DNA of 64,000 nucleotides from Hymenobacter edaphi (lineage in GTDB: Bacteria; Bacteroidota; Bacteroidia; Cytophagales; Hymenobacteraceae): NCBI RefSeq assembly GCF_003258365.1, contig NZ_QHKM01000001.1, positions 1,674,001 through 1,738,000 on the forward strand, in the 5' to 3' direction. A program made the position numbers and the translations under genes. Below, one piece after another: positions 58,759-60,126 of this stretch. The notes below the pieces were generated by a model. That model made no database searches. It had not been told where the DNA came from and saw only the letters and a list, made by a program, of their open reading frames with translations. Each line of letters starts with the position of its first letter. The stretch's first letter is position 1.

Positions 58759-59790
58759 CTACAGCAGCTCCACGCCCGAGCCCGCCAGCTCCGCGCGCAC
58801 GGCTTCGGGCCAGATGCTCACCTGCACTTCGCCGATGTGGGTCTTGCGCAGCATAAACATCGTCACCCGCGACTGGCCGATGCCGCCGCCGATGCTTTCG
58901 GGCAGCCCGCCGTCGAGCAGCAGCTTGTGGAAGGCCAGCTCGGCGCGCGCGGGGCAGCCGCGCACTTCCAGCTGCCGGCGCAGGGCCGTCTTATCGACGC
59001 GGATGCCCATCGACGACACCTCAAAGGCCGCCTGCAGGCCGGGGTGCCAGAGCAGGATGTCGCCGTTGAGGCCGCGGCGGCCGGCGTCGGTTTCGGTGCT
59101 CCAGTCGTCGTAGTCGGGGGCGCGCCCGTCGTGGATTTCGCCGTGGCTCAGCTCGCCGCCGATGCCGATGATAAACACCGCGCCGTACGCGCGGGCGGCT
59201 TCGGTCTCGCGCTGCTTCACTGTCAGCCCGGGGTAGCGCAGCAGCAGCTCCTCGGCGTGGATGAAGGTAATCTGCTCGGGCAGAATGGGCTGGATGTCGC
59301 CGTACTCCTCGGCCACGCGCAGCTCGGTGGTGCGCAGCGCGTCGTAGATTCTGGTCACCGTTTCCCGCAGCAACGGGATGGTGCGCTGCTCGGGCAGGAT
59401 GTGCTTTTCCCAGTCCCACTGGTCCACGTAGATCGAGTGAATGGGCGAGTAGTCCTCGTCGGGGCGCAGGGCGCGCATGTCGGTGAGGATGCCGCGGCCG
59501 GCCGGGATGCCCAGTTGCCTCAGGCGCAGGCGCTTCCACTTGGCCAGGGAGTGCACCACTACGGCCTTTTGCTCGTCGAGGGCCTTGATGGGAAACGAGA
59601 CGGGGCGCTCAACGCCGTTCAAATCGTCGTTGATGCCGGTGCCGTCGAGCACGGCAATGGGCGAGGATACTTTGGTGAGCTGCAGCTGCCGGGCCAGCTC
59701 CTTGGCGAAGGTGTCCTTCACAAAGCTGATGGCTTCTTCGGTTTTGAGCAGCTCAGCGGGGCTCAGAACTTGGGTGGGGGCCGTTTCCAT
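58759..59790 (-). CDS. asnA: Aspartate--ammonia ligase (asparagine synthetase A)
   Basis: A 343-residue cytoplasmic enzyme that makes asparagine from aspartate, ammonia and ATP. It is of the class II aaRS-like AsnA family. The diagnostic C-terminal motif GGIGQSRVTMFMLRKTHIGEVQ is split here as GGIGQSRVTMFMLRKT then HIGEVQVS. Other segments are SIYVDQWDWEKHI, KQRETEAARAYGAVF and DILLWHPGLQAAFEVSSMGI. Length is normal for the family. Unlike most genes of the window it has a 300-base leader with a leader peptide, competing hairpins and a terminator, which point to control by Asn supply through transcription attenuation. Confidence 0.97.
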   Translation of the reverse strand: METAPTQVLSPAELLKTEEAISFVKDTFAKELARQLQLTKVSSPIAVLDGTGINDDLNGVERPVSFPIKALDEQKAVVVHSLAKWKRLRLRQLGIPAGRGILTDMRALRPDEDYSPIHSIYVDQWDWEKHILPEQRTIPLLRETVTRIYDALRTTELRVAEEYGDIQPILPEQITFIHAEELLLRYPGLTVKQRETEAARAYGAVFIIGIGGELSHGEIHDGRAPDYDDWSTETDAGRRGLNGDILLWHPGLQAAFEVSSMGIRVDKTALRRQLEVRGCPARAELAFHKLLLDGGLPESIGGGIGQSRVTMFMLRKTHIGEVQVSIWPEAVRAELAGSGVELL

Positions 59791-59840: not shown

Positions 59841-59857
59841 TTGCCAAGTATTGGCAA
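59841..59857 (-). promoter_or_regulatory. Palindromic site between attenuator and asnA
   Basis: TTGCCAA-GTA-TTGGCAA is a perfect 7-bp inverted repeat with a three-base centre, 51 bases before asnA. It could be an operator or a small RNA hairpin in the leader. Confidence 0.45.
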
Positions 59858-59869
59858 GGCTGCGCCCGG

Positions 59870-59894
59870 CCGAAAAAACTCGTTGTTTTTTCGG
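59870..59894 (-). other. AT-rich hairpin in the asnA leader
   Basis: A perfect 10-bp inverted repeat (CCGAAAAAAC / GTTTTTTCGG) with a five-base centre, just downstream of the attenuator terminator. The role is unknown; it may be a pause or processing structure. Confidence 0.4.
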
Positions 59895-59927: not shown

Positions 59928-59956
59928 AAAAAAAAGCCTTCCGAGAAACGGAAGGC
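59928..59956 (-). terminator. asnA leader attenuator terminator
   Basis: Read on the minus strand, GCCTTCCG-TTTCT-CGGAAGGC is a perfect 8-bp hairpin followed by eight T. It ends 137 bases before the asnA start. Its sequence is complementary to a segment 45-60 bases upstream, inside the leader peptide gene (see the antiterminator entry), so its formation can be prevented. Confidence 0.9.
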
Positions 59957-59990
59957 CTACAAAATCAACAGTTGATTAGGAGTCTGCCAA

Positions 59991-60068
59991 TCAGACCAAT
60001 AGCCTTCCATCTCGGAACAGATTATTGTTCCGATTCTGATTATTGAGGCTGTTGGCGAACTGACGCAT
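59991..60068 (-). CDS. Asn-rich leader peptide of the asnA attenuator
   Basis: A 25-codon ORF with ATG start and TGA stop. The peptide begins MRQFANSLNNQNRNNNL and continues FRDGRLLV. It contains seven Asn (positions 6, 9, 10, 12, 14, 15 and 16), six of them within eight codons. The run of Asn codons lies over the first strand of a competing hairpin, and the stop codon lies beyond the antiterminator segment. This is the layout expected of a ribosome-stalling leader for an Asn biosynthetic gene. Too short to be noticed by usual gene finders. Confidence 0.85.
   Translation of the reverse strand: MRQFANSLNNQNRNNNLFRDGRLLV
60002..60033 (-). promoter_or_regulatory. Competing RNA structures of the asnA attenuator
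   Basis: On the minus strand TCGGAACA (60026-60033, over the Asn codons) pairs perfectly with TGTTCCGA (60012-60019), an early 1:2 hairpin. The same second strand continues as TTCCGAGA-T-GGAAGGCTA (60000-60017). It is complementary to TCTCGGAA and TAGGCCTTCC of the terminator hairpin, with one bulged G. Pairing 2:3 would exclude the terminator. The three structures are mutually exclusive, as in trp and his attenuators. Confidence 0.85.
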
Positions 60069-60095
60069 GAGGGTGCTTGGGGGGCGTTTCGAGGG

Positions 60096-60126
60096 CTAAA
60101 ATAGAAACCGATTCTTACGCCGCAAA
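60096..60126 (-). promoter_or_regulatory. asnA leader promoter
   Basis: On the minus strand TTTG, a 19-base spacer and TATTTTAG match the Bacteroidota consensus TTTG-N19-TAnnTTTG except in one or two bases of the -7 box. Transcription would begin near 60089, about 20 bases before the leader peptide ATG. Confidence 0.75.

Follow-up and report, generated by a model that had tools for sequence, protein, structure and literature searches.

The window, by which we mean the whole stretch of 64,000 nucleotides analysed from Hymenobacter edaphi, carries on its minus strand an asnA gene preceded by a short Asn-rich open reading frame and an intrinsic terminator. In the order of transcription, the features of the locus are:

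60096..60126, minus strand: promoter-like site, TTTG-N19-TATTTTAG, 9/10 consensus positions
59991..60068, minus strand: leader peptide ORF MRQFANSLNNQNRNNNLFRDGRLLV, 25 codons, kept in relatives
60021..60044, minus strand: Asn cluster, six Asn in codons 9-16 (each of 42 aligned leaders has 6 to 11 Asn)
60012..60033, minus strand: 1:2 hairpin, TCGGAACA/TGTTCCGA, -10.3 kcal/mol, three Asn codons at the loop
60000..60017, minus strand: segment 2, the 5' side of the antiterminator, TTCCGAGA-T-GGAAGGCTA (GGAAGGCT is kept in the alignment, in differing frames)
59949..59959, minus strand: segment 3, the 5' arm of the terminator and the 3' side of the antiterminator, from pairing and folding
59928..59958, minus strand: intrinsic terminator, 8 exact pairs and eight T, -15.3 kcal/mol
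58759..59790, minus strand: asnA, aspartate--ammonia ligase, 343 aa (TIGR00669, 402.3 bits against a cut-off of 292.8; PF03590, 324 bits)

The promoter-like site consists of TTTG at 60126-60123, a 19 nt spacer and TATTTTAG at 60103-60096, scored here against TTTG-N-TAnnTTTG, which we take to be the promoter consensus. The leader has seven Asn in total. In the 1:2 hairpin, 60033-60026 pairs with 60019-60012, a register that varies among relatives. Segment 2 is complementary to the terminator region in two blocks, GGAAGGCTA (60008-60000) to TAGGCCTTCC (59959-59950) and TTCCGAGA (60017-60010) to TCTCGGAA (59946-59939). The terminator arms GCCTTCCG/CGGAAGGC pair 59956-59949 with 59943-59936, the eight T follow at 59935-59928, and the stem comes to 10 pairs once the flanking A-T and G-T pairs are counted. 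The ATG of asnA, at 59790, is 137 nt 3' of the T tract. All of these parts had been claimed in a first-pass annotation of the locus, and all were recovered here: the promoter (as a promoter-like site), the 25-codon leader with six Asn within codons 9-16, the hairpin over the Asn codons, the complementarity of segment 2 to the terminator, the perfect 8-bp stem with eight U, the distance to asnA and, through the two profile matches, the identity of asnA itself.

The window AsnA shares 93% identity with the Hymenobacter jeollabukensis protein. The same genome encodes an asparaginyl-tRNA synthetase (TIGR00457, 640 bits) and an asnB-type gene (TIGR01536, 476.7 bits), which implies direct charging of Asn and makes AsnA one of two or more potential sources of it.

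A second hairpin lies between the terminator and asnA, at 59841-59894 on the minus strand, formed by CCGAAAAAAC/GTTTTTTCGG and then TTGCCAA/TTGGCAA, and it is conserved. In other Hymenobacter clades the same site, after an A-rich run, is occupied by a hairpin whose sequence differs (CTCCC/GGGAG, CTGCC/GGCGG).

Predicted switching of the leader

Ribosome stalling at scarce amino-acid codons frees segment 2 and suppresses the terminator in the trp, his and leu leaders. The asnA leader is very probably a classical attenuator of this ribosome-mediated kind, acting on transcription, sensing charged tRNA-Asn and controlling asnA. The gene downstream makes the amino acid whose codons fill the leader, and the putative 2:3 and 3:4 pairings are mutually exclusive, both of which support the reading proposed in the first-pass annotation; further support comes from predicted folding with the ribosome in position, from conservation before asnA in relatives, and from the lack of an Asn leader before asnB-type genes and asnS, as described below.

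Folding was modelled with the ribosome footprint masked, using an assumed value of 13 nt from the A-site codon. A ribosome on the stop codon gives the window terminator a predicted probability of 0.95, and with no ribosome the probability is 0.94; for stalls at Asn codons 9, 10, 12, 14 and 15 it falls to 0.06, 0.00, 0.00, 0.00 and 0.08. With the ribosome at Asn 6 or Asn 16 it stays at 0.94 or 0.95, respectively, in the full-length model. Before segment 4 has been made, the antiterminator is at 0.88 for every Asn stall and at 0.00 for the stop codon, and without a ribosome it is at 0.71, a value that drops to 0.01 when four bases of segment 4 have emerged. According to the model, then, a ribosome at the leader stop codon would cover segment 2 and the terminator would form, and one stalled at Asn codon 9, 10, 12, 14 or 15 would let segment 2 pair with segment 3, with loss of the terminator. 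In the cell, low levels of Asn-tRNA would stall the ribosome and RNA polymerase would read through into asnA, whose product would make Asn from Asp and ammonia; with plentiful Asn, transcription would end near 59928. Asn shortage thus most likely turns asnA on.

The same behaviour is predicted for relatives. Over 71 distinct attenuators the median 2:3 probability is 0.82 at Asn stalls and 0.05 at the stop codon, and 70 of the 71 switch, with 2:3 formed at Asn stalls (a mean probability of at least 0.5 being the criterion) and not at the stop codon, the sole exception being L190. The 2:3 duplex is better than 95% of shuffles in 62/71. At full-length equilibrium the terminator is lost under the best Asn stall in 31/71 attenuators and still wins in 40/71, for which the model therefore requires kinetic commitment. 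In free RNA, before segment 4, 2:3 is favoured with a median probability of 0.79 over the 71, and this makes the 1:2 hairpin an unconvincing guard outside the clade of the window; the modelled case for its protective role in most relatives is weak. Across other lineages segments 2, 3 and 4 vary together, as judged by eye, for example GAGAGGCT/AGCCTCTC/GAGAGGCT in L042.

Conservation, specificity and alternative readings

Among short ORFs of 8-80 aa on the two strands of the 64,000 bases, the window leader alone has at least three Asn in eight codons, and its folding has a z of -3.56 against shuffles. The 158 asnA loci collected gave 141 upstream regions after identical upstream ends were merged, and a pair of Asn ORF and terminator was found in 65 of these, 4 of the 65 being exact duplicates of others. 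The pair was found in 0/141 of the same regions on the reverse strand, and in only 1/1,410 dinucleotide shuffles. Nor was an Asn leader present before 28 usable asnB-type loci (from a set of 30, L149 and L164 being uncounted as they are cut by contig ends) or before one asnS locus. We also considered a T-box or other known RNA family. The window has no Rfam match, the best score being Phe_leader at 21.2 bits against a gathering threshold of 55; the T-box covariance model gave no match at the gathering score and did not appear among the weak matches; and an Rfam scan of 14 relative loci yielded a TPP riboswitch and a tRNA, both elsewhere, and nothing more.

The first-pass annotation had pointed to close relatives as the place to look for the Asn-rich ORF and the terminator, and both precede asnA in 33/33 named Hymenobacter/Solirubrum loci, 27 of the terminators being found by a strict finder and six by a second finder (one of them via an identical copy, L005). 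For alignment, 42 of 43 leaders were used, one identical copy being dropped. All 42 share the ATG of the Asn frame and have an Asn run of 6 to 11 Asn (244 AAT and 83 AAC codons). Of the 83 gaps located before or within the Asn run, 79 span 3 or 6 nt, and of the 12 that lie between the run and segment 2, 11 span 1 or 2 nt. GGAAGGCT is little changed across the 42, yet nine leaders translate it in frame 0 (GRLL) and 33 in frame 1 (WKAI, REAI), and the stop codons lie 14 to 47 nt downstream of its start. As judged from this alignment, segment 2 is conserved as RNA and the Asn run is conserved as peptide.

As for covarying stems, the terminator exceeds its controls and the antiterminator does not. 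In the former 96.4% of cells are paired and covariation is 0.090 versus 0.067 in shuffles (0/500 as high), whereas the latter, with 99.1% paired, is near-invariant within Hymenobacter and its covariation is no higher than in slid versions.

A covariance model, R1, was built from 39 of the 42 aligned Hymenobacter leaders (L030, L038 and L110 were left out, for a reason that is unrecorded). Run on 150 genomes of the family under stricter filters, such that weak copies could be missed, R1 gave one match each in 39 genomes and none in 111. The matches comprise 37/37 asnA-bearing genomes of the genera g1 and g5, together with two genomes without asnA; in nine asnA-bearing genomes of g3 and g4 R1 had no match.

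These two genomes, G043 and G067, carry orphan attenuators at the site where relatives carry asnA:

L212, 1316-1465: orphan Asn attenuator, genome without asnA
L213, 1320-1470: orphan Asn attenuator, genome without asnA

Both orphans retain a promoter-like sequence, a leader ORF (MRLFCNNIPSNNSTNNLVRARKAIAPSE, MRLFSNNISMNNSANNLAWAWKAVAPLEK), GGAAGGCT and a terminator. They are flanked by a PDDEXK-type gene upstream and a convergent flavin amine oxidase gene downstream, and the same flanks surround asnA in relatives; the flavin amine oxidase gene was seen downstream of asnA in 16 of the loci fetched, copies among them. Between G043 and G067 the six Asn codons have 0/18 nt changed and the rest of the ORF 11/66 (one-sided p = 0.058), so preservation of the Asn codons is suggestive only. 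The orphans could be recent relics.

It is fair to ask whether the terminator might instead end a separate short transcript, for a small RNA or small protein, with asnA transcribed from a separate promoter within the 137 nt that follow. The orphans speak for this arrangement, as they keep leader and terminator in two genomes without asnA, as does the observation that leaderless asnA genes (Sphingobacterium, Litoribacter) begin shortly after a terminator that apparently ends the upstream gene. However, it leaves unexplained the Asn codons and the exclusive 2:3 pairing, and the promoter scores go the other way: between the terminator and asnA a promoter-like score of 9/10 is reached in 5/47 Hymenobacter loci (3.2% in shuffles), whereas upstream of the leader 16/47 score at least 9 (2.1% of shuffles). 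The strict promoter pattern was found in 9/47 of these loci and not in the window. We regard a separate transcript as improbable.

That the leader peptide or short leader RNA acts in trans, whether alongside attenuation or in its place, appears more improbable again. A trp leader peptide that acts in trans has been described for Sinorhizobium, in the portion of that report available (PMC7298713), and the six Asn codons unaltered in both orphans would fit such a role. Against it, the C-terminal half of the peptide shifts frame between clades, which leaves the Asn run as the sole part of the peptide held in common, and the orphans may be mere relics. Sensing of Ile in another frame can be dismissed as extremely improbable: a GTG frame does exist (60136-59957, five Ile in eight codons), but its start is upstream of the predicted promoter, Ile codons necessarily arise wherever AAT runs are read one base off, all 42 aligned leaders have the ATG of the Asn frame, and asnA makes Asn. 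Attenuation by Asn remains the preferred reading for the window.

Leaders outside Hymenobacter and tandem loci

Among the nearest 80 named asnA loci, 48 have a leader, namely the 33 Hymenobacter/Solirubrum loci and 15 others, for which the sources are mostly metagenome-assembled genomes of Bacteroidales, Chitinophagales and related groups. When 395 genomes of the class were sampled evenly, asnA was present in 23 and a leader preceded it in five of them (three of Hymenobacter type), which makes the switch a minority trait of asnA at large. In the AsnA tree of 112 rows (of a quick type without a mixture model, one fetched locus being dropped as short), all leader-bearing loci fall in one clade, with support 99. 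The clade contains 89 rows, 40 with a single leader, 13 tandem (L060, L080 and L187 being entered as tandem by hand) and 36 with none; the 23 rows outside it have no leader. Several deep rows of the tree are tandem, which fits a tandem ancestor and is no proof of one.

Ten loci are tandem, each unit being an Asn ORF followed by a terminator (L042, L043, L044, L048, L051, L053, L064, L067, L083 and L186), and L060 and L080 are two more probable cases, in which the second ORF is present and its terminator was missed by the finder. R1 recognises the first attenuator in L053 (3e-11), L042 (9e-11), L048 (2e-9), L043 (1e-8) and L044 (2e-8), and the first attenuator of these loci is therefore homologous to that of Hymenobacter.

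In all 12 of these tandem and probable tandem loci the Asn run of the second leader is followed by Pro, with Pro-Pro in 8 and Pro directly before the stop codon in 8. Two single leaders, L057 and L077, were placed in this second type on the basis of their Pro ending. Over 14 leaders of the second type the Pro codons are CCA 8, CCT 8, CCC 7 and CCG 2. The Ser-Pro-Pro codons were tried as segment 1 of a local hairpin and rejected (mean z 0.08, 14 loci); the varied third positions of the Pro codons, together with this lack of local pairing, point to conservation of the peptide and not of the RNA. Segment 2 begins -1 to +7 nt from the stop codon in 9/12 measured cases, and the 2:3 duplex passes the 5% shuffle test in only 7/12, with clear failures in L186 and L064. 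The pattern Asn4-x-Pro-Pro-stop has 0 matches in 395 genomes drawn from the phylum, and the second leader type is thus rare in even sampling.

A C-terminal Pro slows translation termination. The Pro end of the second leader is perhaps a built-in pause that would keep the ribosome over segment 2, a role that the 7/12 outcome of the shuffle test for the 2:3 duplex speaks against. Taking these observations jointly, we tentatively suggest, as a possibility that we do not rate as high as an even chance, that two serial Asn attenuators of different design govern one AsnA clade in part of the Bacteroidota and give a steep two-stage Asn switch, that Hymenobacter keeps the first alone, and that in some genomes that lost asnA the leader survives as an orphan RNA serving a function of its own. 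In such a scheme segment 2 of the first unit would lie inside the leader ORF, covered by the translating ribosome, and that of the second would start at or just after the stop codon, where the Pro or Pro-Pro end would slow termination and the ribosome would hold segment 2 until the terminator had formed.

Two other leaders, L139 and L190, come from a distant family of the phylum and are long and Asn-rich with alternating Asn; L139 passed the pairing test and L190 failed it, L190 being counted as a leader on its ORF and terminator despite this. At about 1341-1447 of L137 there is a short ORF with interspersed Asn (MSNIYNSLLNYPCNLAGS), followed by a terminator that lies 23 nt upstream of asnA. 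This may be a weaker Asn leader; since the ORF has 3 Asn in 8 codons, L137 was counted as having none.

Relation to known systems and biological meaning

Ribosome-mediated attenuators are known from Proteobacteria, for trp, his, leu, phe, thr and ilv. The proposed asnA attenuator shares with them an ORF rich in the product amino acid, segments 1-4, an exclusive antiterminator and terminator, and a biosynthetic gene downstream. It differs in its specificity for Asn and asnA, in having no Rfam match and in having two serial units in some relatives. A further difference is the lack of a Shine-Dalgarno word: a Shine-Dalgarno-like word precedes the leader ATG in only 1/47 leaders, and the window leader is without one. 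In enterobacteria asnA is controlled by AsnC, which likewise provides Asn-responsive control of the same enzyme, but as a protein repressor/activator on DNA and not by RNA attenuation.

T-boxes of asparagine genes in Firmicutes also sense tRNA charging and control premature termination, as the proposed leader would, and asnS T-boxes occur in a few Firmicutes and in 0 of 7 Bacteroidetes/Chlorobi genomes, so far as the accessible part of that survey goes (PMC2494555). T-boxes bind tRNA directly, without translation, whereas the asnA leader would depend on the ribosome and has no T-box match.

Leader-peptide attenuation has already been proposed within the phylum. For Flavobacterium psychrophilum it was put forward for amino-acid operons, with elements upstream of pheA and hisG, and the main text of that paper has no mention of asparagine or asnA (PMC9723704); phylum and proposed mechanism are common to both cases. 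For Bacteroides thetaiotaomicron, sORFs resembling attenuation leaders are mentioned, in the sections available (PMC7366714). Naville and Gautheret (2010) state, in the part of their article at hand, that before their Firmicutes case leader-peptide systems were unshown outside Proteobacteria and Actinobacteria (PMC2965389). A caution comes from Streptomyces coelicolor, where, according to the accessible text, the candidate leader peptides of ilvB and leuA failed mutational tests as classical attenuators (PMC1262725), and these failures weigh against the attenuator reading. An Asn leader peptide before asnA was not found in the literature searched, which covered few subscription journals; the first-pass remark that no such leader is described in the phylum agrees with this, attenuation by leader peptides as such having been reported in flavobacteria. 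The mechanism would thus be the classical one, and what appears new, as far as the literature was searched, is its specificity for Asn and asnA. The tandem, Pro-ended variant found elsewhere is the more novel part, ahead of the asnA attenuator itself.

Shine-Dalgarno words are little used in this phylum, and to our knowledge there are hardly any measurements in it of how transcription and translation are coupled. The proposed switch could work only if the ribosome loads quickly without a Shine-Dalgarno word and keeps pace with RNA polymerase. We note that one clade, Hymenobacter, bears the attenuator regularly, so the question is directly testable in laboratory species that are non-pathogenic. 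The tandem loci, with their conserved Pro ends, offer a test case for slow termination at Pro-stop as a working part of an attenuator, and the attenuator of the window would add Asn to the amino acids that are sensed by leader peptides.
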